A stretch of 64,000 nucleotides of DNA, from positions 4,216,001 to 4,280,000 of the forward strand of contig NZ_CP067412.1 of the NCBI RefSeq assembly GCF_023375815.1, in the 5' to 3' direction. A program made the position numbers and the translations under genes. The DNA is from Pseudomonas sp. HS6 (GTDB lineage: Bacteria; Pseudomonadota; Gammaproteobacteria; Pseudomonadales; Pseudomonadaceae). Of the stretch, positions 158 to 15,987 are shown in pieces; position 1 is the first letter of the stretch, and every line of letters starts with the position of its first letter. The notes under the pieces are model-generated. The model saw only the letters and a program-made list of their open reading frames with translations. It was not told where the DNA came from and made no database searches.

Positions 158-820
158 TCATGTAACTGTTGTAGCGTTTCTGGCCTTCGCATCCCTACCT
201 TTAGAGATAAGATGGCTCAACAACCAACAATCTTCGTAGGAGGCCGACTGATACTTTTGTAGGTCATTCCAACTGCAGACTGAACTTACCGCATAAATCC
301 CGAGCTCATATGAATTTTCGGCTTGCATATAGAATGTCGGAAAACGATGCGATAACCATTCAGGGGCGCCAGGGATAGACTCTCCTGCGGACGTAGTGAC
401 GATCGGTTGAACGTGAAAGAAATTATGCTCGTCTCCTTCATCTTCAGGATGCTCATAACGATAGCCAAATCCATTATAGCCAGGCACCCCTTTTCCAGTT
501 AACGAAATAGTTTCAGCGTTGAACTCGTCTCCCCCCCTGGCTACGAAACGAATTAGACGAATCCAGTCATGTTTCTCGTCAACGCTAAGTACTAGTACAG
601 CCGAGCACCCTCGAGGCTGGGATAAAAATTTAACCAGATTCCCCTTCAAAATAGATGCAACATCACTGGAATAGTTAATAGCACACGCGTTCCTCCCGCG
701 TGGAGACTCTTGAATGGCTTGAAATTTACGTAGTGCCTGCTTCGCTTGGATCTTCTTAGAGTTCGCGATATGTAAATTTGTTAAAAAATCCGCAAATTTC
801 TTAGCTCGATTTTCGTCCAT
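158..820 (-). CDS. Hypothetical protein, third gene of the GHKL/receiver operon
   Basis: A 220-residue soluble protein with no signal peptide or membrane segment and no domain I recognise. The N-terminus is basic and helical (MDENRAKKFADFLTNL), followed by a mixed region with a GKGVPGYNGFGYRYEHPED stretch near the middle. The start is 10 bases after the stop of the receiver-domain gene on the same strand, so the two are almost certainly co-transcribed. By position it may be the effector or an accessory factor of the two upstream signalling proteins, but nothing in the sequence states an activity. Base composition is A+T-rich like the rest of the operon. Confidence 0.75.
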   Translation of the reverse strand: MDENRAKKFADFLTNLHIANSKKIQAKQALRKFQAIQESPRGRNACAINYSSDVASILKGNLVKFLSQPRGCSAVLVLSVDEKHDWIRLIRFVARGGDEFNAETISLTGKGVPGYNGFGYRYEHPEDEGDEHNFFHVQPIVTTSAGESIPGAPEWLSHRFPTFYMQAENSYELGIYAVSSVCSWNDLQKYQSASYEDCWLLSHLISKGRDAKARNATTVT

Positions 821-830
821 GACCGCACCA

Positions 831-2027
831 TTACATCAAAAGATAAGATTGAGGCTCATAATTTATCGTGGGAAGAGCACTATTTTTAACAACTTTGACC
901 CAGCGTTTCTTGTCGAATGCAATAACATCACTTGGAAAACTTGATGCATCATCCTCAAGAACAAAGCTTGAGCTATCCTCACAAAACTGGAGAGGCTGCA
1001 ACTCTGCAAAAGCGAAACCTTCTGGACATGCAATCTCACGACGTGCCTTTTCAGCCCAAAAAACCGGACGGGAGAATAAAAAATCAGGCACTACAGCGAA
1101 TGGTGCGAGCGCTTCTGGAACGTTCACCGCATCTAGACGACATAAGTTATTCCAAGCTTCAAGACTCCGGGCATCAGATACAATCCAAGGCAACTGCCCG
1201 CTTAAGTGAGGAGCATCAGCAACCACTTCCTGTGATGGCAGCACTACCTTTTCCAGCCAATGAATTAGGATCGCGGTACATACGCGAGCAGTCTGCTCGA
1301 CTGAAAAATTCTCGATAACCTTCACATCTTTTTCGAGAATATTGAAAAGCCTTAGACCGTCATTACTAACGACAATATCTCGAAATGTCATATCCTTTTT
1401 CCCAGGACTGGAGCCTAGAAACGCTGCTACTTCATAGCTGATATAATTCGAAGCTTCAGTATCCTCCAGCTCAAAACCTAACGTAGCCATAACAGGCTCG
1501 TCCAGTTTTTGCAAAATATACCTCTGAATCAACTCGAACCTTTTTATCTCTTCGTTCAGATTAGGCCAGTGCCATGGCCGATATAATTCGAATCCGCTAG
1601 ACAACCAAAGTCCCGGTGACTGTATCTGCGCACTTCCTACATCTACGTCAGCATAAGATGAAACACTTCTGCGCATAGTAAGGTCGAAAGCATTGGTTCC
1701 AAATTGATTGACTACGATGACTGGACCGACCTCCGACATAAGGCGGATGCTATAGGCGAGCTCAGCGCCAGTAGCCCAAGCAGCAGGAGACTCCATTTCT
1801 AAACCTAGTAAATCATAGTCAATTATGACTAGGTCGAACCCATTTAAAGCTTCTACAGGAACAAATTTTTCGCCACGAGAAGCTAGGCGAGATTTATGTA
1901 ACTCACCGATGAGACTCGACACTTCATTAGGCTGGTAAACTACAACCTCACCCTTTACAAATTTATCCAAGGACTCTTTCCAGAGTTTCGCCCGTTTGGT
2001 CTCATCGTCTAAAATAAGGATTTTCAT
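831..2027 (-). CDS. Receiver-domain protein with unknown C-terminal region
   Basis: A 398-residue protein. Residues 1 to about 140 look like a response-regulator receiver: the opening MKILILDDE supplies the acidic pair D7/D8, and FDLVIIDYD supplies a phospho-acceptor-like D70 (with D72 close by). The later strand GPVIVVNQ stands where the conserved lysine normally lies, with no obvious lysine. The remaining 250 or so residues match no DNA-binding or enzymatic output domain I know. An ATG at 2039 is also in frame, but ATG 2027 is preferred: it overlaps the upstream stop as ATGA and has GGAG six bases upstream. It is the second gene of a three-gene operon after a kinase-like ATPase, so phosphotransfer from that protein is a reasonable inference. 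Confidence 0.75.
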   Translation of the reverse strand: MKILILDDETKRAKLWKESLDKFVKGEVVVYQPNEVSSLIGELHKSRLASRGEKFVPVEALNGFDLVIIDYDLLGLEMESPAAWATGAELAYSIRLMSEVGPVIVVNQFGTNAFDLTMRRSVSSYADVDVGSAQIQSPGLWLSSGFELYRPWHWPNLNEEIKRFELIQRYILQKLDEPVMATLGFELEDTEASNYISYEVAAFLGSSPGKKDMTFRDIVVSNDGLRLFNILEKDVKVIENFSVEQTARVCTAILIHWLEKVVLPSQEVVADAPHLSGQLPWIVSDARSLEAWNNLCRLDAVNVPEALAPFAVVPDFLFSRPVFWAEKARREIACPEGFAFAELQPLQFCEDSSSFVLEDDASSFPSDVIAFDKKRWVKVVKNSALPTINYEPQSYLLM

Positions 2028-4234
2028 AACTCGCTCCATTCGATTTTGAAAGTGGTTTTGTAACCCAAATGCGGCTCAATAAAATGAACCTTACAGTCAA
2101 CTGAGTCGGCCACCATTTTCACAATTGTTAATCCAATCCCCATCCCACCCATCCCAAGTGCCTTCCTTTCTTCAGGAATTTCTAATCGCCGAATGAAAGG
2201 TTTGAACAGATCATCACTATCCTTCAGCCGCACCCCAACGCCAGTGTCAGAAATATAGATGGCGCCTCCAAGATCATTGAATTCTCCAGAACACCTTATA
2301 CTTCTTACTTCAACTTCCAACATCGCATTGACAGCGTTAATCAATACATTCTGAAATACTGCATTCCAAGCTGCCAAAGTTGCGGACGGTAATTTCACGC
2401 CTTCAGGGACAGCATTAACAATATGCACGCCCCGCAATAAAACTTCAGAGTTATCAACAATCTTCGCTAAAAGTTTCTTACCATTATAGGAATTCCGCTT
2501 TTCACGATCCGACTCATGCATAAGTGGTGAAAATAGCTTTCGTGCGTTTGCGGTGCGTTCTGCCCAAGAATTTAGAGTTTCAAGAAGTACCGGTTCGTTT
2601 AGCACGCTTCCACCCTCATTCAGCCGTCGCCGGATATCATTAAGGATAGTGAGCTCCTTATGCATCTCGTGCTCCATAGCGATAGCCGCCATGCCTGTCG
2701 TCGCTAGCGCAGCCAGCAAAACTCGCTCCTCCTCGAACGCTGATTTTCGCTGGGCTTCTAGCGCCTCTAGCTCCTCGAAGTGGCTTGATACCGCCTCTAA
2801 TCTTTGCGCGAGTTCAGATGGGGCACTTAATGAGATCTGGAAAAGCTCTTCTCGAATTTCGGAAACTTTCTCCTGCGTGTCCGGCATATCAAGACGATGA
2901 GACGCGATCGTTCTCTGCCTGCGCTCGTAAGAGCGCATAGCATAAAAATCCATTGCCCATCGAACGGAGTGCTGCAGCTCTTCGAAAGCGTCGTTATCTA
3001 TGAGCCGATCACGAGTAACCTGAACGTTAAGATATCGCCCCTTATCTATCTCATCCTTTCCGGCAGCAATGCGCTCGTGGGAGGTCGAGATGTTAACGAT
3101 TCCGAAAATACGAGAGTTGGTTGGCAGATCGTTCAATCCGCTTTGAACTTGAAGGTTCGAAGGAAGCAGATAGGATTTATTCAGGCGATGAGAGTGAGCG
3201 ATCTCCAACTGCAGCCAGTCTTGTTCGTCCCCACCATAGAATGGAAGCCTGAAACTGTTGTCATAGATATGCACGCCGCCAAATTTTTTGAAATACTCAC
3301 GTGCTGCACCGACTTGCACACCGCCAGTTTGCTTCCCGGACAGTTTAAATATGTATATTTTAAAATTTGCTTTATCCAACGCTTGTGAACGTGTTGGAAA
3401 GGTGGCCGGATAACTGTCTCCATCCCTAAATGTAAGTTTTACTTCATTCGGACCACCTTGACGACCATCATTTAGCTTCCCTTCAATCACTGCGATCCAG
3501 TTCTCAAGAGCCTGGTTCATCTGCTCAGTAAAGGTCCCTTCAGCACTCTCGGTGACACCGTCTAGAGTCACGTCGAAAACATCCGGGATCTCTGATGCGT
3601 TTTCACTATTTAGAAGATCAGAGGGAGGTTTCAGAAACCATAATTCTTTGGCAAGCTCTTGAAGGTCGGTGTTGTACCAGACCTTCTTTAGCAGGCTGAT
3701 GGTTACGACGGTACCATGCCCGTATTGATCGTCGATCGAAGTGATATTAGGTGCTGCTCTGACTAAGGCGCCAGCTTCTACTAACTCCCCTGCCTGCCTA
3801 GCTCCCGTCCAATCCACAGAAGCACTGAACGCCTGCCCAGTGTCTTTACTACGAGAAACTATATCTACCTTGTCGCCAAGGAACTGCACCGACAGTCGAC
3901 CCACCCCTTTAGAACCAGTGACCTGACGATTTCTCTCAGTTCGGAAGCTTGCCTGCTTGTGCGTTGTACCAATACGAAGCCAGAAATTCTTGAATTCAAG
4001 CGGCGACATACCGTCACCATTATCAATTACAGAGATAGAATCCTTTCCAAACCGTATCGTAACCTTCGTGGCATCCGCGTCGTAGCTATTCTTCACCAGC
4101 TCAGCCAATGCGATGTGGGGCTTGCCAACCAGCCGCTCACCTAGCTCCCTCAACAAAGCCGCATCAACTGTAAAGCGCTCGAAATTTGGCTCTCCGAGCT
4201 CCGGGCCGTTAGTTTTTTGGAGATTGTTAGACAT
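2024..4234 (-). CDS. Dual GHKL ATPase / histidine-kinase-like protein
   Basis: A 736-residue soluble protein with two GHKL-type ATP-binding modules. The first (about 20-150) resembles HSP90/MutL/MORC ATPases: ELVKNSYDAD with N49, IDNGDGM with D71, and a glycine loop GSKGVGRLS. A middle domain follows to about 430, then a coiled coil rich in E, R and L (about 455-515). A helical region around AMEHEMHKEL (H522, H525) resembles a histidine-kinase H box. The last 150 residues are a HATPase_c domain with N box (N629, N633), DTGVG (D663) and GMGGMGIGLTIVK. There is no membrane segment, so any signal sensed is cytoplasmic. First gene of an operon with a receiver protein; the pairing suggests a two-component relay, possibly in phage defence. 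Substrate and trigger are unknown. Confidence 0.85.
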   Translation of the reverse strand: MSNNLQKTNGPELGEPNFERFTVDAALLRELGERLVGKPHIALAELVKNSYDADATKVTIRFGKDSISVIDNGDGMSPLEFKNFWLRIGTTHKQASFRTERNRQVTGSKGVGRLSVQFLGDKVDIVSRSKDTGQAFSASVDWTGARQAGELVEAGALVRAAPNITSIDDQYGHGTVVTISLLKKVWYNTDLQELAKELWFLKPPSDLLNSENASEIPDVFDVTLDGVTESAEGTFTEQMNQALENWIAVIEGKLNDGRQGGPNEVKLTFRDGDSYPATFPTRSQALDKANFKIYIFKLSGKQTGGVQVGAAREYFKKFGGVHIYDNSFRLPFYGGDEQDWLQLEIAHSHRLNKSYLLPSNLQVQSGLNDLPTNSRIFGIVNISTSHERIAAGKDEIDKGRYLNVQVTRDRLIDNDAFEELQHSVRWAMDFYAMRSYERRQRTIASHRLDMPDTQEKVSEIREELFQISLSAPSELAQRLEAVSSHFEELEALEAQRKSAFEEERVLLAALATTGMAAIAMEHEMHKELTILNDIRRRLNEGGSVLNEPVLLETLNSWAERTANARKLFSPLMHESDREKRNSYNGKKLLAKIVDNSEVLLRGVHIVNAVPEGVKLPSATLAAWNAVFQNVLINAVNAMLEVEVRSIRCSGEFNDLGGAIYISDTGVGVRLKDSDDLFKPFIRRLEIPEERKALGMGGMGIGLTIVKMVADSVDCKVHFIEPHLGYKTTFKIEWSEL

Positions 4235-5313: not shown

Positions 5314-5745
5314 TTAGGGAGCCATACGCTCTAAGATCTCGGGTTTCGATCGCTTGGAAGTCAGAAACCGGTGGATGACTTCCGAATTGCCCTTGTTTAG
5401 TCCAGAACCATGTTCGACGACGTCCGCAGCACGGGAGATCATCAGCTCACCCGAAGTAGGCACGCTCCGCACATCCAAGGTGATTTTGTAGATCCGCTTG
5501 CTGTTTTTGCCGACTTCCAATGTGATGTTATTCGAGCAATGCTCAAGCTGTTTCGGCTCGTTACCACCCAGGTATTTGAACTCGACCTCGACAGAGTCTG
5601 CCTTCTCGTGGACGACTCTCCACGCACTCGGCAGGTCGGACGGAGCCACCATGAACTGAACCTTCAGGCCACGCTGCTCTCTGGATTCCACTTCGTTGAG
5701 ATCATGCTGGGAGACCGAAATCCACTCTTCAAGTGATGTACGCAT
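5314..5745 (-). CDS. Hypothetical partner of the 2TM-GAF protein
   Basis: A 143-residue protein without signal peptide or membrane helix. The first 30 residues are acidic and helical; the central part (VEVEFKYLGG, NNITLEVGKNSKRIYKITLDV) alternates like beta strands, ending in a basic tail. Its ATG shares a base with the stop of the upstream gene (TGATG), which indicates translational coupling and probably equal amounts of the two proteins. No family recognised. As the obligate partner of a membrane-anchored GAF-like protein it may be a soluble sensor, inhibitor or adaptor. Confidence 0.7.
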   Translation of the reverse strand: MRTSLEEWISVSQHDLNEVESREQRGLKVQFMVAPSDLPSAWRVVHEKADSVEVEFKYLGGNEPKQLEHCSNNITLEVGKNSKRIYKITLDVRSVPTSGELMISRAADVVEHGSGLNKGNSEVIHRFLTSKRSKPEILERMAP

Positions 5746-6590
5746 CAGGCTCTCTCCAATAAGTGACCTATTAGAGCGACCGTGAGCGTGTAATGCTCAA
5801 CGGACTCTTGTGTCACCGCCAAGGACGTCAAACTGTCCAAGACGACTACCCCCCAAAGCTTGCCATTGCACTCCACTGGCACGGCAGCCATGGAGCGTGG
5901 GAGCGTCCTTCCTTCAGCAAGGTACCTCTCCACAAACCTCACTGACGACTTGGTCACCTTAGCATAACTCTCTTTTTTGGCAGCGCCCGTCCCCGGTTTG
6001 ATCTCAGGGAGGTCAGACAGCAAGGCAACCTGGCGAGTCGACCAAGCGAGGCCGGCAAGCCCTTGAGTGCGTGCGCTGTTTTCATTGTCGATGAAAAATA
6101 GCGTCTTGGTTTTCAGTGTCAGATGGCCGGACCGCATGTACGGAACCAGATAATTCCCATAGAGCCGTCGAGTTTTGAAGGGCCACCAGCCATCCTTACT
6201 CTCCTCGTGCCAATGACGGCGAAAGAACAGCCCTTTGCGGTATTTGAATAGAGTGACCCTATTGTGATCCTTGGGTACATTGAGATCTTTGAATACCTTC
6301 CCTTGGTATTCATCGAGGATGAACTGCAGCTTTTCAACGACCCACGGGTCTGCCATATGCTTGATAACGGCCATGGCAACGACCACCGCCGCGATAGCCA
6401 GTAGTACCCATATTGCCACCTCCTGGAAGCTGTCGACGAGCGTCCAGACCACCGGTCTCTGGGTGATCCATTTGTCGTCCTTTTCAACATCCATCAGCCA
6501 GATTGTCCCTGAGGACATCAAGCCGGCGATGACGTAGATATGGCCAGAAATGGCGTAAATCGCTTTTCGTTTCGGTCCCGTCCGCAACAT
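5745..6590 (-). CDS. Two-helix membrane protein with a GAF-like domain
   Basis: A 281-residue protein. Two hydrophobic segments are visible, roughly 10-33 and 52-76 (EVAIWVLLAIAAVVVAMAVI), joined by a short charged loop, leaving a cytoplasmic region of about 200 residues. The C-terminal part (about 220-281) has the strand-turn-strand signature of GAF domains (MAAVPVECNGKLWGVVVLDS). GAF domains bind small ligands such as cyclic nucleotides, so ligand-gated membrane action is plausible. First gene of a two-gene operon in the transposon cargo. Candidate defence or signalling module; the exact function cannot be read from the sequence. Confidence 0.7.
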   Translation of the reverse strand: MLRTGPKRKAIYAISGHIYVIAGLMSSGTIWLMDVEKDDKWITQRPVVWTLVDSFQEVAIWVLLAIAAVVVAMAVIKHMADPWVVEKLQFILDEYQGKVFKDLNVPKDHNRVTLFKYRKGLFFRRHWHEESKDGWWPFKTRRLYGNYLVPYMRSGHLTLKTKTLFFIDNENSARTQGLAGLAWSTRQVALLSDLPEIKPGTGAAKKESYAKVTKSSVRFVERYLAEGRTLPRSMAAVPVECNGKLWGVVVLDSLTSLAVTQESVEHYTLTVALIGHLLERA

Positions 6591-7010: not shown

Positions 7011-8780
7011 GTGACCGAAGCAGTGACGCGTTGCAATTTTGCATACCGAAGGCCTGAACTCAGGAATCCTGATAGCAAAACTCAAAACTGGGTAGGCGAC
7101 TACATCGTCTGGTGGTACGGCCCTGTGATGCGTAATAACAGGGCGATGTCTATCCCCCTTGCGGCCGTTCTGTTCCGCAAACTGGATGATAACGTCCCTG
7201 GCGACTTTAAGGTGGCCCACGTCCCCTTCACCAGCCTCCCCCATTACAGAGTCGGCACAATCTGGCGCAATGGTCACTGCATCTCAGACACCGAGCTCGC
7301 TACCGCAAGGCTCGCGGTAAACTTCAGCACAGAAAAACGGCGGATTACTTCACGCAGAGAGCTCATCGCCGCAGATAAAGGGAAACTCTTCGCAGATGAC
7401 GAGTATCCGCTACTCAGGGGAAACGAAGATGCCTGCAAGGTTCTCGACTTTTCGTTGGGTGATGATAAAAACCTACTGATCCCCTGCACAGAGTACTTCG
7501 TACGTGCCTATGCCAGAAACATGGAGATCTGCAGGGCCCTTGCTAATTTGCGTTGGGACGATGTTTTTAATGTTCTTTATCAAAACCCGAAAGCAGAGCG
7601 TAATCTGCCCGTTTGGCTAGTTCGCCCGGGTCCTAGAATGCGCTTCTTCGACGCAGTGTTCCTGGCTCATATTCTCTACGACCCGCACACGGCTAGCGTT
7701 GTAAAAAGGGTGAATTCGCAATTCATGTCCCAAGCACCGGGCAAGCCCATGCTCCTCAAATGCGAACCATGGTTCGAAGGTCATGGTGAGATCCTCGGTC
7801 GGGGCAAATGGCTGAATGGCGGGAAAACTTTTTTGTGCTTGGATCTGATGGGAACAAACATGCCCAAAGGTCCTGAAGTTGAATTTCAAAAACTGAAGTT
7901 CGACAGTAGCGAAGGCTTGGATGGTCTGGGAAGAATCGTGCTGCCGCGTCCGATCAAAAGTGCTGCCCTTGAGGACTTCCTCCAAGAACGCTCCACGATT
8001 GAGCCCGATCGACATGCCGAAATTTATGAGGCCAAAGCCGCGCCGTTCAAAGTGCTTGGCGAAAAACGGCCAGTGAAGAAATCAAAATCTGTCGTGAAAG
8101 CCAATAAAAGTCCACTTGGCCCAGCACCACCTGAGGCAGATGGAGTTTCTGCAGGTACTGGCACCGGAAGTGGAAAGAACGTCGGCAAGCTTGAGACCGT
8201 GTCGGATGAAGAGCATGAGAAAGCGCCTGACCTGGTGCTGGAAACTCAAGGCTTTTTCATGGACATCTGGAATGCACTCAAATCAATCGCCGCTGACAAT
8301 CCGGAAAAGATCCTGCGCGTTGACTGGTATACGCCCGTGGCACGATTCAGCAGTAAGCCGCCACTTGGTGTCGTTGAGCTCGTAGTCGAAAACGAAGAGG
8401 AACTTCCACCAGATGTGCGATCCTGGCTGTATATCGACCGAAGCGCCGGACTGCGGCGGGGAATATTGATCATCCGCATCAAGACGACCAGGGGCAATTT
8501 CTTTTGCTTCGAGGTTCAGCGAAAAGACGGGAAAAAAGGTGAAATCCCTCCGGGATCTGCAGGACTGTTGATGACGTTCAGCGGAGATGAAGAGGCATTC
8601 AAGCATTTCGTCAACGAGCTATGCCGAAGGATTCCCGGCTACAGAGGAGTGTTCAGCAAACTCAAGAAGCTGTACCCAGAAGAATACGTCACCTTTAACC
8701 ATGGCAAACATGACAAGGAAATTCTTTACCGGAACATCCTCATCAACAAATTCGGTGAGCTTGATCTAGCGCTTGTCTAA
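7011..8780 (+). CDS. tnsE: TnsE-like transposition target-selector protein
   Basis: A 589-residue protein starting at GTG 7011, with AGGAG at 6996-7000. Its layout follows Tn7 TnsE: an N-terminal strand near GDYIVWWYGP (TnsE: RIFVWFNP), a helix after an IPC/IPQ motif (LLIPCTEYFVRAYAR), and a KCEPWFEGHGEILGRGKW block like the TnsE WCFSFDPPPMQGW region. A disordered basic/acidic linker follows (about 340-420), then a C-terminal domain with paired strands (GILIIRIKTTRGNFFCFEV) and a final helical DNA-binding-like part. TnsE directs Tn7 to replicating or conjugating DNA through the sliding clamp. The gene lies opposite to the tns operon in the same element. Similarity was judged by eye from memory of TnsE, so the call is probable, not proven. 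Confidence 0.6.
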   Translation: MTEAVTRCNFAYRRPELRNPDSKTQNWVGDYIVWWYGPVMRNNRAMSIPLAAVLFRKLDDNVPGDFKVAHVPFTSLPHYRVGTIWRNGHCISDTELATARLAVNFSTEKRRITSRRELIAADKGKLFADDEYPLLRGNEDACKVLDFSLGDDKNLLIPCTEYFVRAYARNMEICRALANLRWDDVFNVLYQNPKAERNLPVWLVRPGPRMRFFDAVFLAHILYDPHTASVVKRVNSQFMSQAPGKPMLLKCEPWFEGHGEILGRGKWLNGGKTFLCLDLMGTNMPKGPEVEFQKLKFDSSEGLDGLGRIVLPRPIKSAALEDFLQERSTIEPDRHAEIYEAKAAPFKVLGEKRPVKKSKSVVKANKSPLGPAPPEADGVSAGTGTGSGKNVGKLETVSDEEHEKAPDLVLETQGFFMDIWNALKSIAADNPEKILRVDWYTPVARFSSKPPLGVVELVVENEEELPPDVRSWLYIDRSAGLRRGILIIRIKTTRGNFFCFEVQRKDGKKGEIPPGSAGLLMTFSGDEEAFKHFVNELCRRIPGYRGVFSKLKKLYPEEYVTFNHGKHDKEILYRNILINKFGELDLALV

Positions 8781-9213: not shown

Positions 9214-10659
9214 TTAATCGACGATGGTTCGCTCATAGGTACCCGCTGATGGCACCCACAGCACCCCTCGTGGGCATTCAATGTTGAATCCTGCAGTCCC
9301 CTGATACGTTGCCGGAACATAGACGAGTGCCTTGCGACTGATCCTGCCGAGACCATGGAAATAGGCCAAAGCCTTAACAATCCATCGAGACTCAAAATCA
9401 CTTGTCTCATCGCGTTGTGGCAGCAACTCGACAAGCTCTCGCTCGCGTTTCGCTAGTTTCTGTTGTCTTGCCCAATTCGCATCCGGACGAGAGTTCAGTC
9501 CCGCGCTGTAAACCTTGTTCAAGTACCCGATGAAGCCGGTGACACTTGCCACCGTCCCCGGCGACTTACGCCAATAACTATCGAGCGCTTTCTGGTCAAC
9601 CATGGCGGCGGCCTTCAGCCGCGAGTGTCCCAGCAAATCAGAGGCAGATCGTAAGGCGAGCCTGGTTGATCTTAGGCTAATGTCACCGGCCGCCAAGCGG
9701 CTTTGCAGCATGCGGTAATAACCGACAATCAATTGCTGGTTCCAGGGTTCTCGGGGTTGCTCCATGATGCCCTGCACACGTCGCTGCTCAGAATCTGTTT
9801 CGCGGGCCTGCGCGCATACCATCAAACCGTCGACCTCGCTCAGCCAACGCATCGGAACGCGGGCACGGCGCAATCCTTCAGCCGAGAAATGCCGCAGCAG
9901 TTGAACGTACGGAGGCACATCCTGCCAGACGTTTTCGAGCTCTTTGAAGAACTCGTAATAAGTGTTGATCTTCAAGGCTCCCGCCTTGGGCCCAAGCTCA
10001 AGCAAAGTCCAACTTCCGAATCGCTGAAACCGCTGCGCCATGGATTGAACGCTCAATCCGGCAAGGTTAATTGCCAAGCGCTTGTGGAAGGTTCTCTCCC
10101 AATAGCATTGCTCACATTCTTCGCCACGCCCGGCTGGTGTACTGACACCACAAGTCACACACGCATGCACACCTGCTGTGATGCAGACCTTGCAGCGCCG
10201 GCGACCATCAGATCTCGCAATCAGCACGCGATGTCGCCGGCAGTCAGGGCATGTCTCGGCAGCAGGACCACTGCATTTTGGGCAGAGCAATTTGCCAGTC
10301 AGCGTGTTCCTCGTTGTTCGCTGTGAATGCGTCCCGCAGGATTCGCAGATTGCTGGCTCACGAAAGTGCACTGCGCAGGGTTTGCACACAGGCCCATAGG
10401 GGGTGATGCGCCCGACTTTGAAATCGACTTTGTTGCATCGGGCGCATGGTCCACTCCTTAAGCAGGCACTGCAGCGCGCGGCCTTGTCAAATGTCGGGAG
10501 CCTGGAGAAATTGCCGCAGCCAGGACAGAGTCGACGCTTGAACAGTCGTGGATAGCAGTTCCCGCAATAGCGCTTTTCTTGGTAAACCCTTTTGGGCTGC
10601 GCTACGACACGGCCGCAGCCGTCGCATTCACAGCGATCCAAATGTTCAACGGATGCCAC
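9214..10659 (-). CDS. tnsF: TnsF-like comM target selector (zinc ribbons, tyrosine-recombinase-like)
   Basis: A 481-residue protein. The first 190 residues hold a long series of CxxC pairs (CDGCG, CPGCG, CSAC, CARC, CESCG, CPKC, CPDC, CVTCG, CEQC), i.e. several zinc ribbons. The second half is helical and resembles the core-binding part of tyrosine recombinases (RLALRSASDLLGH, YWRKSPGTVASVTGFIGYLNKVY), but no catalytic R...HxxR...Y set is visible. This matches TnsF (formerly TniE), the inactivated tyrosine-recombinase selector that works with TniQ to direct Tn6022-like elements to comM. Start GTG at 10659 overlaps the tniQ stop by 14 bases. Last gene of the tns operon. Confidence 0.8.
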   Translation of the reverse strand: MASVEHLDRCECDGCGRVVAQPKRVYQEKRYCGNCYPRLFKRRLCPGCGNFSRLPTFDKAARCSACLRSGPCARCNKVDFKVGRITPYGPVCKPCAVHFREPAICESCGTHSQRTTRNTLTGKLLCPKCSGPAAETCPDCRRHRVLIARSDGRRRCKVCITAGVHACVTCGVSTPAGRGEECEQCYWERTFHKRLAINLAGLSVQSMAQRFQRFGSWTLLELGPKAGALKINTYYEFFKELENVWQDVPPYVQLLRHFSAEGLRRARVPMRWLSEVDGLMVCAQARETDSEQRRVQGIMEQPREPWNQQLIVGYYRMLQSRLAAGDISLRSTRLALRSASDLLGHSRLKAAAMVDQKALDSYWRKSPGTVASVTGFIGYLNKVYSAGLNSRPDANWARQQKLAKRERELVELLPQRDETSDFESRWIVKALAYFHGLGRISRKALVYVPATYQGTAGFNIECPRGVLWVPSAGTYERTIVD

Positions 10660-11767
10660 GTCGTCTGACCTTTCGCTTCAGTCGTAGCCACATACGCAGC
10701 GTCTGCGCGGGGCTACTGGAATGTTGACGGCCAACACCACTTACCAAGTGATGCCTAGGCGACTGGAGTGCTGCGACCAAATCCAGCAGAACTGGAGGCG
10801 CACTATTGGGGGAAAAGTGCAGAGTCGAGGCTGGAAGCAACTCATGTCGTGCCGCTTCGATAAATTTTTCTGGCCCAGCCGACATTATTACCCACGCCAT
10901 ACTGAGCAGCACAGAGCGATCAGCGGGAGAGAGGTATTCAAGAGGCAACCCCAACGGAATCGGCTGGAGAGACTCAGGCAATATGCCCAGTGATTCGAAG
11001 AATCGCCCAGCAGCAACGCTATGTCGACGTACTGCTGATTGGGCAAAGCTCACCATGGTTCGTGCAACGGTCAACCAATCGCGAAAATCGAGAGACGATG
11101 TTCCATACATGGGCCGAAGGCCAATGCTTTCGTCCACATACCTCTGGAAAGCCAGTGCAGCTTCTGCGGCAGCGCTCCGATCTCCGCCGCTTAGTGAAGC
11201 ACCGCACCTATGGCAGTCGCTGAGCGAGGCACCGGCTCTCAGAAGTTCCGGCTGCAGAGGAGCCAGACAACGTCCACACCTATCAACAAGCTTTATCCCA
11301 TGGATAGGGCAGCAGGTATGCCAGGCCAGGCGCCATTGAATGCAATACCGCGAGTTGTATTGCGCAATGCAATCCGGGCAGCATTGCAGGCCCCCGCTAT
11401 GATGCCCCCCTCTGCAACCCAGCACCGTTAGCCAAGGCCAATTCCCGCACGGCAGTCTGTCCGGCCGACGCACGATCGAGGACATCGCACGCCCAAGGGT
11501 AGCGGACTGCAGACTCGCATAAGATACTCCCGACAGCCTGCTAAGAACCGCAAGCCTGCTCTTTACCACCGATCGATCCAGATCACTTGCCCAAGCTCTA
11601 AAACCAGGCCATATGATTGCGGTCAACGCTGCGGGGGAGCAGCCGTGAGCAAGTGCCATCCTGACAATCCAGGAAGTCAGAAGCTCGTCGGCGAGCAGCG
11701 GTTTAGTGAGGGGCCAGATCGGGTTTACAGGGCCTGCTCCCGGATGCCACGAGTAGGACGTAACCAT
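10646..11767 (-). CDS. tniQ: TniQ family transposition protein
   Basis: A 373-residue TniQ/TnsD-family protein. The N-terminal signature DELLTSWIVRMALAHG is typical, followed by CPDC and the conserved WRLAWHTCCPIHG with a second zinc pair (CGRC) and CHRCG, forming the TniQ zinc-finger region at about 125-200. TniQ proteins bridge the attachment-site-binding factor to the TnsC ATPase. It starts at 11767, within the end of tnsC (43-base overlap), and its stop overlaps tnsF, so the genes are translationally coupled. It is shorter than Tn7 TnsD (508 residues), consistent with the DNA-recognition role having moved to TnsF. Confidence 0.88.
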   Translation of the reverse strand: MVTSYSWHPGAGPVNPIWPLTKPLLADELLTSWIVRMALAHGCSPAALTAIIWPGFRAWASDLDRSVVKSRLAVLSRLSGVSYASLQSATLGRAMSSIVRRPDRLPCGNWPWLTVLGCRGGHHSGGLQCCPDCIAQYNSRYCIQWRLAWHTCCPIHGIKLVDRCGRCLAPLQPELLRAGASLSDCHRCGASLSGGDRSAAAEAALAFQRYVDESIGLRPMYGTSSLDFRDWLTVARTMVSFAQSAVRRHSVAAGRFFESLGILPESLQPIPLGLPLEYLSPADRSVLLSMAWVIMSAGPEKFIEAARHELLPASTLHFSPNSAPPVLLDLVAALQSPRHHLVSGVGRQHSSSPAQTLRMWLRLKRKVRRRGIR

Positions 11768-12615
11768 GACATGCTCTCGATGAGTTCTATGTCAATGCAT
11801 TCCTTACCGGAAGCTATGGCCTGCTTCGCACACTCCATCAGAAGCCGGTGCACATTCCCCAAGTTTCCGCCGGAAATTGCGTGTATACGTCGAGCCTTGT
11901 CTGGATGTGCCAACCCAGAGGGCTTCTTCAGCGGCAGAATCGACTCAAACCCTTTGAGCATGCGCTGGAATTCGGGATCGAGCTTCCACTGATCGAGCTT
12001 GATGACATCGAAGCGACTGGCATGTTGTGGGTCATGATGAAGGATACGAACGGCATCCGTTGTGCCGACGCCAATGATCGGTATCACCAGTTCATTACAG
12101 AGCGACTTCAAGGCGTTCATCACCTCACGCTGCTTGATCGCAGAGCCCGTCAGCAACGAATGAAACTCATCAATGATCAGCATTCTGACCCTGAGCTCAC
12201 GGAAGGAATGAATCACCTGGTAACGCAATGCCAACTTTGTATCCGTGATCCTGTAAGGCATCCATAGCTGCTCCAGCAAAGCCACATAAAGCGCCTTCTC
12301 GTCAGCAGCCGAAGGTGCCTCCGCCAAAATCAAGGGGCGGACCGGATCATCATTTTCGTCGACGTACCCTTCGCCATGCGTTTTCTGGAAGCGCCGAATG
12401 ATGGTCGTCTTGCCGTTGTTGGAATCGCCCACAATCAGCAGATTAGGCATGCGAGCTCGTTTGGGCATGACGATCAGGTCATTAAGCGTATCCAGAATTG
12501 TGCGAGCCGATACATAGCCGATCCAGCGCTCCTCTCCCATGAAAAGGATCCTGTCCCGATCACTCAGTTGCAACACCGGTCGAAAATCAGAATGGATGTG
12601 TTCGTATGTGCTCAT
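11725..12615 (-). CDS. tnsC: TnsC-type AAA+ transposition regulator
   Basis: A 296-residue ATPase of the TniB/TnsC family. Walker A is GDSNNGKT (residues 63-70) and Walker B is RMLIIDE (144-150), followed by FHSLL. Family members form a filament on target DNA, receive the signal from TniQ and activate the TnsA/TnsB transposase. The short length is like TniB rather than Tn7 TnsC (555). The start overlaps the tnsB stop as ATGA. Confidence 0.9.
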   Translation of the reverse strand: MSTYEHIHSDFRPVLQLSDRDRILFMGEERWIGYVSARTILDTLNDLIVMPKRARMPNLLIVGDSNNGKTTIIRRFQKTHGEGYVDENDDPVRPLILAEAPSAADEKALYVALLEQLWMPYRITDTKLALRYQVIHSFRELRVRMLIIDEFHSLLTGSAIKQREVMNALKSLCNELVIPIIGVGTTDAVRILHHDPQHASRFDVIKLDQWKLDPEFQRMLKGFESILPLKKPSGLAHPDKARRIHAISGGNLGNVHRLLMECAKQAIASGKECIDIELIESMSWLRPTRGIREQAL

Positions 12616-14540
12616 TCGACTTCACCTGTCGATTCGACCTCCGAAAGCATAAGTAGGTCAGAATCCTCCTGAATGGGATCCATTACCAGCTTCGCAACGG
12701 GCTTGCTCGGTTGAGCCGGCGTACCCTTCTTGCTGTGGGTACGACTCTTCTGAGCGTTTTTGCGGGCTTTCTTGCTGTTCGCGGACGCCTCTTCGACAAG
12801 CTTTCGGTTTTCGACGGCGTACTCGGCGATCAACGCATCGTCTATGTTATCGCGCCCTTCGCTGACAGCTTTGTCCTTGGCAGCGTGATACTCCCAGAGG
12901 GTTACCGCAGGAAATGCCTGGTATGAGGCCGGCACTCGGAAGTATTGCTTCAGAACAGGGTCGTAGAACCAAATGACGCTGACATCCCTAGGATCCCGCC
13001 TGAAGAGCAGTTTGAGAGCCTTTCCGGTCGCGGGATCCTTTTGGTTGATCCAATGACGCAGCGCCTCGGAGTAGTAGAACAGATCCCACTGCACACCATA
13101 CGTCTGCACCGTCCTGCGAACAGATGGGAGGAAGTCCAACTGTACCGCCAAAGGATCCGTCGGTCGCGCCGGCACGCTGATCAGGGGATCTACCTCCCGA
13201 TTGCCGAAGAATGCCAACTGCCACTTGCGAGCGGGGCTCATGTGGAGCTTTTTATGGTAGGTCTGGTGGTACTTCAAAATTGACCGAACCAGCCATACCT
13301 CGAATTCCGCCATTGTGAGAACGGCTTTAGCATCCGAGTCATAGCCCTCACGCTCCTGAGGGTTACTGAAGGTGGTTCCCGGTAGCTCGTGCACCATTCT
13401 CATGAAGGTACCAAGCACCCGCTCAATTCGACCACCGTACTTTGGAACTTTGGATGGTCGAAAGACGCTGTCTATCCCGTAGTTCTTGCAAGAATCTACG
13501 ATGTTCTGCGCCCTGAAGTCTGCCCCGTTATCAGTGTGAATCGTGCGCGGGAAGCCCCATACCGGCCACTCTCCACGGATGTCGTGGGCAGCCAGCCAGG
13601 CTTCCTTGGGCAAAATCGAATGTGCGATGCACATCGCCACAGATGTCTCGGAAGGCGACTCGAACGCCAAGTAGTAGCCAACGATCATGCAGGAGTAGAT
13701 GTCGATGGCAAGGGTGAGCCATGGCCGACCAATTGGCTTGCGATGGCGTTCGTCCACCACAATGAGATTGACCGGGGTATGGTCGATCTGCACAACGGCT
13801 AGGGGATAGCCTTCGTCTGGAAACTGACCGACTGAAGGTGTGTGTCTATTGTTCGCCTGCTCGGCATATCCGCGCCGGCGAAGCTTCACCACCTCGGGAA
13901 TCTGTCGGATCCGGGCCCTGATGGCGGACGCACCCGGAGGCTGAATGTCTAGCAATCGCGCTCTGCGTTCGACTTCCGAAATGGTGGACTGAACCGTGTA
14001 CCTTTGCTCAGTCAGGTAGTAATCAGCCAACACCTCTTGTACGAGCTTTTCTCCTTCAACAGAAAGACGCGTACTGCCCTCACGCCATCCTCGTTTGCGC
14101 GGCACGAGAGCCAAGACCTCATTCCATCGATTGTAGCGATCTAGCCAACGATAAAGAGTTGCCGGGCTGATTCCTGTCGCCTTCGCACGCGCCGCGACGG
14201 TTTCTTTGGATAAGACAGTGTTGCCTAACAACGGCAGAATTGCGGAGTAACGCTTTTGCGCAATAGCCCAGGCATCCGAGCTGATGCTGCTGATATCGTG
14301 GTTAACGTATAGGCCGTCCAGTTTTTCCGCATCCACAGCCCTTAGGTCCAGAATCTGTAGAGCCGCACTACGACCGGTCTCGACCTCCGTCGCGATCACT
14401 GTTTGCAGATCCAAGATCTGAACAATCCGGTAGACCTGCCTGTCTCGCCGCACCATCGCGCCGACCTCAATGGCAACGCGAGACCGAACGGGCTCAAACG
14501 GGACCAGATGCTCGCTGGTGTCGTCTTCATACAGTTTCAT
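12612..14540 (-). CDS. tnsB: TnsB DDE transposase
   Basis: A 642-residue transposase. A helix-turn-helix region (about 110-150, SPATLYRWLDRYNR) precedes the retroviral-integrase-fold catalytic core, where D253 (QIDHTP), D337 (HTDNGADF) and E373 (RIERVL) form the DDE triad. A Mu-type C-terminal domain follows, ending in a lysine-rich tail that in Tn7 contacts TnsC. TnsB binds the transposon ends and cuts and joins the 3' strands. ATG 14567 is also in frame, but ATG 14540 has GGGTG at suitable spacing and overlaps the tnsA stop by 14 bases. Confidence 0.92.
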   Translation of the reverse strand: MKLYEDDTSEHLVPFEPVRSRVAIEVGAMVRRDRQVYRIVQILDLQTVIATEVETGRSAALQILDLRAVDAEKLDGLYVNHDISSISSDAWAIAQKRYSAILPLLGNTVLSKETVAARAKATGISPATLYRWLDRYNRWNEVLALVPRKRGWREGSTRLSVEGEKLVQEVLADYYLTEQRYTVQSTISEVERRARLLDIQPPGASAIRARIRQIPEVVKLRRRGYAEQANNRHTPSVGQFPDEGYPLAVVQIDHTPVNLIVVDERHRKPIGRPWLTLAIDIYSCMIVGYYLAFESPSETSVAMCIAHSILPKEAWLAAHDIRGEWPVWGFPRTIHTDNGADFRAQNIVDSCKNYGIDSVFRPSKVPKYGGRIERVLGTFMRMVHELPGTTFSNPQEREGYDSDAKAVLTMAEFEVWLVRSILKYHQTYHKKLHMSPARKWQLAFFGNREVDPLISVPARPTDPLAVQLDFLPSVRRTVQTYGVQWDLFYYSEALRHWINQKDPATGKALKLLFRRDPRDVSVIWFYDPVLKQYFRVPASYQAFPAVTLWEYHAAKDKAVSEGRDNIDDALIAEYAVENRKLVEEASANSKKARKNAQKSRTHSKKGTPAQPSKPVAKLVMDPIQEDSDLLMLSEVESTGEVE

Positions 14541-15222
14541 GATCAGGCACCCAGAGTTCGAGGTCATGATTCAGCGGTTCAGTAATGTCGCAGTCAACCT
14601 GACGCGTGGCGATCAGGTGCCACAGCAGCGATACGCCCCGATCGCGGAAGATACCGTTGAAATGCCGTGCCAGGAGGTAGTGCACCGGAGCAACTTCCAT
14701 CTCGCGCAGCGTATTCAGCACTGTATCGATGTCACTTTGTTCAAAGATCATTCGCTCAAAGCGCTCAAGGAACACAATGTTCTCGAGGGGAAGGCCACGA
14801 ATCCGCGACTCGTCATAAATGCGGAACTGCCACCCCTGGCTACGAGCCAACCGGCGTGCTTCCTTCCACTTGCCTGACCAGGCTCGCCAGTTCTCTACCC
14901 ATTGTCCTCTCGGTTTTACCTCCACAAGCAGCGGGCGCAGCACGCCAAAGTACGGCAAGTTCTGCTGGTGGTAAAAAACAAGATAATCAGGCGTGTAGAT
15001 CTGCGGGCGTCCTAGGGAGTCGGAGAAAGGAACCTCCACCGGTTGGGAGATAACCGACTCAACCTGGTGAGAGAAGCGCATACGCTTCAGAAAGTCTCTT
15101 TCCAATGACGACTCAAAAGCGACCCCACCTAACCCTTTGAAAGCCATCACTCCTGAAATGCTGCGGCGGGTCGGCTTGATCTTCCGGACCGGCTTAATCT
15201 GGTCGCACCTATTTCCGATCAT
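14527..15222 (-). CDS. tnsA: TnsA endonuclease subunit of the transposase
   Basis: A 231-residue restriction-enzyme-fold nuclease. Candidate catalytic residues are E41 (SLERDF), D79 (YTPDYLV) and E101-x-K103 (LVEVKPRG), as in TnsA. It cuts the 5' ends of the transposon, making transposition cut-and-paste. It is the first gene of the tns operon and begins about 120 bases inside the right end. The N-terminal codons contain one of the two end repeats proposed as TnsB sites, so transposase binding may shut down its own promoter. Confidence 0.9.
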   Translation of the reverse strand: MIGNRCDQIKPVRKIKPTRRSISGVMAFKGLGGVAFESSLERDFLKRMRFSHQVESVISQPVEVPFSDSLGRPQIYTPDYLVFYHQQNLPYFGVLRPLLVEVKPRGQWVENWRAWSGKWKEARRLARSQGWQFRIYDESRIRGLPLENIVFLERFERMIFEQSDIDTVLNTLREMEVAPVHYLLARHFNGIFRDRGVSLLWHLIATRQVDCDITEPLNHDLELWVPDHETV

Positions 15223-15249: not shown

Positions 15250-15339
15250 CAAGATTCTCAGTAATTTCAGAAGGTTTTGATGGCCAATAGCGGCCTCTAG
15301 CGTAGCTATTTATCATGTATTTCGAAAGCCTACAGCAGT

Positions 15340-15987
15340 TCAAAACCGCAACCCGGCGAAATCACCCTCGCTCATCACGGTGTGCTGTTTCTCGATGAAC
15401 TACCCGAGTTTGATCGCAAGGTGCTCGAGGTTCTGCGCGAACCGCTGGAATCCGGCTGCATCGTGATCGCACGGGCCAAGGAGCGTGTGCGGTTTCCCGC
15501 ACGATTCCAGCTGGTGGCGGCGATGAATCCCTGTCCCTGTGGATATCTTGGTGAGCCGAGCGGCAAGTGCTCGTGCACGCCGGACATGGTGCAGCGCTAC
15601 CGCAACAAGCTCTCGGGGCCGTTGCTCGATCGGATCGATTTGCACCTGACGGTGGCGCGGGAGGCCACAGCTTTGAACCCTGCGGTGAAACCGGGAGAGA
15701 ACAGTGCCAGTGCGGCGGCGTTGGTCGCCGAAGCCCGCAAGCGGCAGCAGAAGCGCCAGGGCTGCGCCAATGCGTTTCTCGATTTGCCGGGGTTGAAAAG
15801 GCACTGCAAGTTATCCACAGCCGATGAAACCTGGCTGGAGTCGGCGTGTGAACGGCTGACCTTATCGCTACGCTCGGCGCATCGATTACTCAAGGTCGCG
15901 CGCACACTGGCCGACCTTGAGCAAGTTGACGCCATCAAGCGCGAGCATCTGGCCGAGGCGTTGCAGTACCGTCCGGCAACACCTTAA
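15340..15987 (+). pseudogene. comM: comM (yifB) 3' half, interrupted by the transposon
   Basis: An open frame resumes at about 15340 (SKPQPGEITLAHHG) and runs to TAA 15987. It contains Walker B (LFLDELPEF), the arginine-finger region (LSGPLLDRIDLH) and the C-terminal Mg-chelatase-like domain (about 210 of the roughly 500 residues of ComM). The N-terminal half with Lon-like fold and Walker A is missing on this side. ComM is a hexameric helicase that extends branch migration during natural transformation. No start codon or promoter precedes the fragment, so it is probably inactive. ACCGC, the duplication reported at AbaR insertions in comM, is at 15345-15349. Confidence 0.9.

Follow-up and report, generated by a model that had tools for sequence, protein, structure and literature searches.

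What does a soluble protein with two ATPase domains of the GHKL type do when it is carried on a transposon next to a DNA methylase? This question is raised by a histidine-kinase-like protein of Pseudomonas sp. HS6 whose gene lies near the left edge of the window, the 64,000-nucleotide stretch analyzed here (contig NZ_CP067412.1, positions 4,216,001 to 4,280,000). An original prediction, made from the letters of the window, placed the gene at the head of a possible new defense or signaling operon and proposed a cytoplasmic two-component-type relay akin in logic to Detocs. We find that the kinase gene is followed by genes for a receiver-domain protein and a third conserved protein, here called U, and that this triad stands beside genes for a Vsr endonuclease and a C5 cytosine methyltransferase. 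We consider it somewhat probable that these genes form a restriction–modification (R-M)-linked, cytoplasmic two-component-like module, with the triad in place of a restriction enzyme. With the methylase and Vsr present, the module is more likely to be tied to R-M than to act as a stand-alone, Detocs-like relay.

Results

The kinase (positions 2024 to 4234, minus strand; 736 residues) comprises, in order, a HATPase_c_3 domain (residues 40–152; Pfam, E = 4e-24), a linker, an H-box with H522, and a HATPase_c domain (residues 626–732; Pfam, E = 3e-16). In an alignment of a five-sequence profile with the Protein Data Bank, AdeS and other solved histidine kinases cover residues 516–733, with H522-E523 falling on their His-Glu pair, and MutL and HtpG align with parts of the N-terminus. 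The H, N, G1, F, and G2 boxes of canonical two-component kinases are all present, and the protein has no hydrophobic helix, its highest 19-residue mean hydropathy being 1.27. The Pfam matches, structural alignment, and hydropathy thus bear out the predicted union of an N-terminal GHKL ATPase and a C-terminal histidine-kinase module in one soluble protein, and with it a cytoplasmic, two-component-type composition. Across 84 homologous kinases of at least 640 residues, N49, D71, G107, K109, G110, G112, and H522 are invariant (84/84), with the locus search patterns themselves selecting for part of the N-terminal conservation; 83 of the 84 retain N633. Of the two candidate sites named beforehand, H522 and H525, the latter is not conserved, which leaves H522. 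No Pfam model exceeded its cut-off in the linker, where the S5 domain that follows the GHKL domain in paraMORC proteins was not scored separately. The NCBIfam model of the BbrUII/HgiDII restriction enzymes matches residues 21–196 (E = 3e-24) at 86 bits, below its cut-off of 550, and MutL matches of the N-terminal ATPase likewise stay below cut-off.

Downstream of the kinase, open reading frames (ORFs) and fold matches of an AlphaFold2 (AF2) model agree with the anticipated order of a receiver-domain protein followed by a third protein. The receiver protein (positions 831 to 2039, minus strand) has 402 residues, or 398 if translation starts at Met5, a start that produces an ATGA overlap with the kinase stop codon. 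According to the model and its fold matches, the receiver domain spans approximately residues 4–177 and contains D11, D12, and D74. Both D11 and D74 are invariant in the 27 aligned sequences and D12 is nearly so; several residues in the C-terminal half of the protein are invariant as well. Library and fold searches of the receiver protein recognized no DNA-binding output domain, the fold search having barely tested the C-terminal half.

Protein U (positions 158 to 820, minus strand; 220 residues) is defined by a conserved set of residues, R121, E123, and H132-x3-H136-x-Q138, in an alignment of 26 sequences from the closer of two clades described below. Profile-library and structure searches returned no convincing family or fold match. 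The U protein of the broader clade may be similar to DUF2290 over an H-P-x2-H region (probability 66%, E = 5.5e-5), and the close-clade U has no profile similarity to this family. In locus L129 (266–2094), a DUF2290 gene lies directly downstream of a helicase-like gene and encodes a conserved R-F-D ... H-P-x2-H region.

The operon continues from kinase, receiver, and U into a minus-strand gene for a Vsr endonuclease of 140 residues (Pfam PF03852, 96 bits; also named by PADLOC), which has a 4-nucleotide ATGA overlap with the U gene and runs past the left edge of the window. The window holds its first part (positions 1 to 161); the full ORF occupies positions 11739–12161 of L015, a stretch of the same contig that reaches left beyond the window. 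Convergent to these genes, on the plus strand, lies the gene for a C5 cytosine methyltransferase of 349 residues (L015 10721–11770, between 230 and 1279 bases outside the left edge of the window; PF00145, 172 bits; PADLOC), and with it the locus has the methylase of a type II R-M system. Scans with Pfam, NCBIfam, and PADLOC identified no restriction endonuclease among the kinase, receiver, and U, though U or the C-terminal half of the receiver may be one of an unrecognized kind. Vsr enzymes repair the T:G mismatches left by deamination of 5-methylcytosine. The operon content first proposed, a kinase, a receiver, and a protein of no known family, was therefore correct as far as it went, and missed the methylase and Vsr at the window edge.

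Relatives of the module were collected by kinase alignment alone; we analyzed the best 80 of at least 521 (loci L016–L095), which together with our own locus and eight from plasmids and genome searches give 89 rows. Two rows, L008 and L060, represent one plasmid with a split kinase and were excluded from alignments, tree, and neighbor scan. Among the best 80, the relatives span many bacterial phyla and some archaea, and the rows fall into a close clade of 29 (28 distinct loci) and a broader clade of 60; the full-length close-clade kinases form a single bipartition with a support of 1.0 (26 of 84 tips). The receiver profile matches 29 of the 89 rows and the U profile 66, and the window receiver is related to that of the broader clade (probability 96.8%, E = 2e-10). 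Where U was detected, and leaving our own locus aside, the distance between the U and receiver genes falls between −60 and +200 nucleotides in 24 of 25 close-clade loci and in all 38 broader-clade loci, the exception being L022, where an opposite-strand ORF intervenes between the two genes. No U was found in L031, a locus near a contig end. In the viral collection, of which 14 of 65 loci were read, all six full-length close-clade loci (L138–L143) hold kinase, receiver, and U in order, with a C5 methylase in five and Vsr in three of them within a 4-kb flank. Co-occurrence of the three genes is thus borne out in distant genomes and viral-collection loci alike. The module kinases of two of these contigs, L138 and L139, are 72% identical to the window kinase.

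The distribution of the module is sporadic: within the genus, the receiver gene occurs in 1 of 298 sampled genomes, our own, and within the phylum the kinase occurs at E ≤ 1e-30 in 5 of 398. Its carriers include plasmids, a transposon, and viral contigs. A further dual-GHKL variant was seen in L010 (7968–11747), L046, L047, L078, L082, and L086, in which a kinase of approximately 685–705 residues precedes genes for proteins of approximately 230 and 340–360 residues; the last gene in L010 is annotated as an MBL-fold hydrolase.

How closely is the methylase tied to the triad? With methylases detected by phmmer (E ≤ 1e-5) or by sequence motif, a C5 methylase is found within −6/+7 kb in all 29 close-clade rows and in 4 of 60 broader-clade rows, 42 of which have an N6-type methylase, as judged by a permissive motif. 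Vsr is near 21 of the 29 close-clade rows and 1 of the 60 others. Because the loci were found by kinase alone, the methylase link was not selected. For background, 60 genomes of our own phylum, 226 Mb in all, contain 76 C5 methylase stretches, or approximately 0.005 per 15.2 kb, a figure based on rounded genome sizes, with one gene sometimes counted twice, and compared with loci from many phyla; our own genome has three C5 methylases in 6.5 Mb. Mapped onto the kinase tree, the C5 label requires 5 changes, compared with a mean of 24.6 and a minimum of 18 over 500 shuffles. In 87 of the 145 listed close-clade neighbors, no single nuclease family occurs in more than 3 (among 25 of 77 and 25 of 118 families listed), and Helicase_C occurs in 2.

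The complete kinase–receiver–U–Vsr–methylase set is cargo of a Tn7-like transposon of 25,596 bp; for the triad, the original prediction had proposed transposon carriage. It extends from L015 1739, outside the window, to its right end at window positions 15315 to 15334; comparison of both junctions revealed inverted TGT...ACA ends alike at 16 of 20 positions and a perfect 5-bp target duplication, GCAGT. Pfam assigns minus-strand genes for TniQ (10646–11767), TniB/TnsC (11725–12615), a TnsB-like protein (12612–14567), and TnsA (14527–15222), so that TnsA, TnsB, TnsC, TniQ, and the 5-bp duplication of a Tn7-like element are all present. The insertion interrupts a gene of the Mg-chelatase family, which we take to be comM, leaving halves at L015 893–1777 and window 15382–15987. 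At the far end of the transposon (L015 1995–8494) lie genes for MkoA (PADLOC, 1857 bits; 1684 residues with NERD, kinase-like, and helicase domains) and MkoB (292 bits), a Mokosh assignment that follows PADLOC gene names, without subtype, and that supports the original prediction by placing defense genes in the same element. Tn7-like transposons are reported to be rich in genes for defense (PMC8649781).

Other cargo includes two minus-strand genes at 5314–6590, one encoding 281 residues that include a strongly hydrophobic segment and show a weak, sub-cut-off similarity to GAF domains, the other an uncharacterized protein of 143 residues, and a 589-residue ORF at 7011–8780 (plus strand, opposite to the transposon) without Pfam, NCBIfam, or PADLOC match. 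A Cys-rich protein of 481 residues without Pfam match (9214–10659, minus strand), encoded directly after TniQ, is possibly the target selector of the transposon.

Discussion

We propose the following model for the module. The C5 methylase would mark self DNA, with Vsr mending T:G mismatches from deaminated 5-methylcytosine. The MORC/MutL-like N-terminal ATPase of the kinase would contact DNA and detect incorrect methylation or DNA state, whereupon the C-terminal domain would autophosphorylate H522 and the phosphate would pass to D74 of the receiver. The receiver and U, with U or the C-terminal half of the receiver as the putative effector, would then carry out a restriction or suicide response, presumably against phages, and so substitute for a classical restriction enzyme. 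At the level of sequence, conservation of both ATP pockets, of H522, and of the acidic residues of the receiver is consistent with this model. The retained kinase–receiver–U order, the C5 methylase that follows the kinase tree, the lack of a recurrent nuclease family among the neighbors scanned, and MkoA/MkoB on the same transposon also argue for it, as do two published precedents, the R-M association of MORC/paraMORC ATPases (PMC2292703) and a GHKL–nuclease protein active against phage (PMC12137116).

Several observations weigh against an R-M-linked relay, the main weaknesses being the atypical receiver and the missing effector. In the AF2-based assignment of positions, N111 occupies the apparent Thr/Ser place of the receiver and no Lys is conserved in the 27 sequences, so that receiver switching may be unusual. 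Neither the C-terminal half of the receiver nor U matched a nuclease or effector domain in library and fold searches, and hhalign connects the U proteins of the two clades only weakly (probability 47%, E = 2e-4). By the tests used, 15 of the 60 broader-clade loci have no methylase, and the permissive N6 motif fired in 14 of the 29 close-clade rows as well. A genome-average background will understate chance linkage within defense islands, for which the broader clade (4/60) is the fairer control. Some copies do have a nuclease nearby: HNH in 3, HNH_2 in 2, and NaeI in 1 of the 87 neighbors (among families listed), and a PaeR7I-family enzyme is annotated near the Ornithinimicrobium plasmid copy (L008/L060), whose kinase is split into several ORFs. 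Several nuclease domains have also been reported near the canonical system of HEF_HK kinases compared below (PMC8011034). Among the papers listed in literature searches, which left out most subscription papers, none was an experimental study of the module.

Could the triad serve R-M without performing restriction? Transcription is often controlled by histidine kinase/receiver pairs, and the alternative that we take most seriously, unlikely as it is, has the kinase and receiver regulate the expression or activity of R-M genes, with U as the regulator's accessory. Signaling control of R-M systems has been proposed for HEF_HK kinases (PMC8011034). However, the receiver has no recognized DNA-binding output domain, with its C-terminal half barely tested by the fold search, residues of that half are invariant, and no separate restriction gene recurs beyond a few of the scanned neighborhoods. 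It is rather improbable that the triad instead belongs to an ordinary type II-like system with U as its restriction nuclease, in which the dual ATPase and receiver would act as an ATP-dependent clamp or licensing factor and phosphotransfer would not be essential. The enzyme-like R121, E123, H132, H136, and Q138 of U would suit such a role, and GHKL-type restriction enzymes exist, as the sub-cut-off BbrUII/HgiDII match recalls; yet the invariance of H522 in 84/84 kinases and of D74 in 27/27 receivers favors phosphotransfer, and U matched no nuclease family or fold.

A C5 methylase near all 29 close-clade rows, following the kinase tree, makes it highly improbable that the triad is an infection-triggered, stand-alone Detocs-like relay with the methylase and Vsr as mere passengers, a scenario that the order of a cytoplasmic kinase, receiver, and third protein and the other defense genes on the transposon would otherwise suggest. 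We see even less reason to expect a module outside defense, serving epigenetic or DNA-repair signaling such as methylation-linked regulation or a mismatch response with Vsr. Vsr near 21 of 29 close-clade rows and the sub-cut-off MutL matches would fit, but the sporadic distribution and the carriage on plasmid, transposon, and viral contigs are usual for defense or selfish modules.

If the R-M-linked model is correct, restriction could be executed by phosphate signaling, with a kinase converting the methylation state of DNA into a phospho-aspartate rather than a dedicated enzyme cutting directly. It would give a role to R-M-linked kinases that were noted in 2021 without a function, tie MORC-type ATPases to signaling, and add the conserved protein U as a candidate effector. 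More tentatively, one may envisage a family of mobile restriction systems spread over bacteria and archaea, with C5 and N6 branches, in which a phosphorelay replaces the restriction enzyme, a MORC-like kinase reads methylation, and a new receiver family acts with U as effector.

Comparison with Known Systems

Detocs shares a two-component-like defense logic; its domains are unlike those of the window module, it is not known to include a methylase, and its effector is a nucleoside phosphorylase. A PADLOC-DB scan gave no Detocs-named match, whether that library contains Detocs models being unchecked. The paraMORC and prokaryotic MORC ATPases are associated with R-M operons (Iyer et al. 2008, PMC2292703) and resemble the window kinase in their N-terminal GHKL ATPase and in their R-M, C5 methylase, and Vsr context. 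Unlike the paraMORCs described there, the window kinase has a complete C-terminal histidine-kinase core, is followed by a receiver, and, with Helicase_C in 2 of 87 neighbors, has no typical helicase partner. In Shedu VcSduA/paraMORC3, a GHKL–nuclease protein that defends against phage, a GHKL ATPase likewise controls a defense effector (PMC12137116). The effector there is a fused PD-(D/E)xK nuclease, whereas the window module has a putative phosphorelay and U.

The closest known system was described computationally in 2021 (Bellieny-Rabelo et al. 2021, PMC8011034). A literature search on HEF_HK and Response_reg_2 listed one further paper, PMC10663231. In the 2021 description, kinases composed of HATPase_c_3, HEF_HK, and HATPase_c domains are linked to Response_reg_2 genes in 91.6% of cases and also to C5 methylases and Vsr; they are proposed to descend from paraMORCs, and their function is predicted. 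The window kinase is likewise soluble, has the same architecture with a His-Glu H-box, and is homologous to HEF_HK kinases along its full length (profile probability 99.85%, E = 1e-30), and its gene has an adjacent receiver gene with a C5 methylase and Vsr next door. Because of this homology and shared methylase context, the initial statement that no system of this composition had been described must be withdrawn.

The two systems differ in several respects. The window kinase has approximately 740 residues and the receiver 400, compared with approximately 1000 and 570–720 in canonical loci. The HEF_HK model (PF19191) does not match the window kinase at E ≤ 1 and finds no match in genome G000; a kinase homologue of 40% identity just passes its cut-off (24.3 versus 24.1 bits). 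The Response_reg_2 model (PF19192) is absent from the window receiver, from four homologous receivers scanned, and from genome G000, and the window receiver has no match to it beyond the phospho-Asp segment (hhalign probability 1.2%). Among 299 sampled genomes, HEF_HK occurs at E ≤ 0.001 in 11 (10 over cut-off) and Response_reg_2 in 8. All eight canonical loci have a C5 methylase at most one gene away; in none of them was the conserved U gene detected. Judged by sequence, the window module is a compact sister of the HEF_HK/Response_reg_2 system that fails two of its Pfam-defined features; what appears to be new is a receiver distinct from Response_reg_2, a compact kinase, and the conserved third gene, U.

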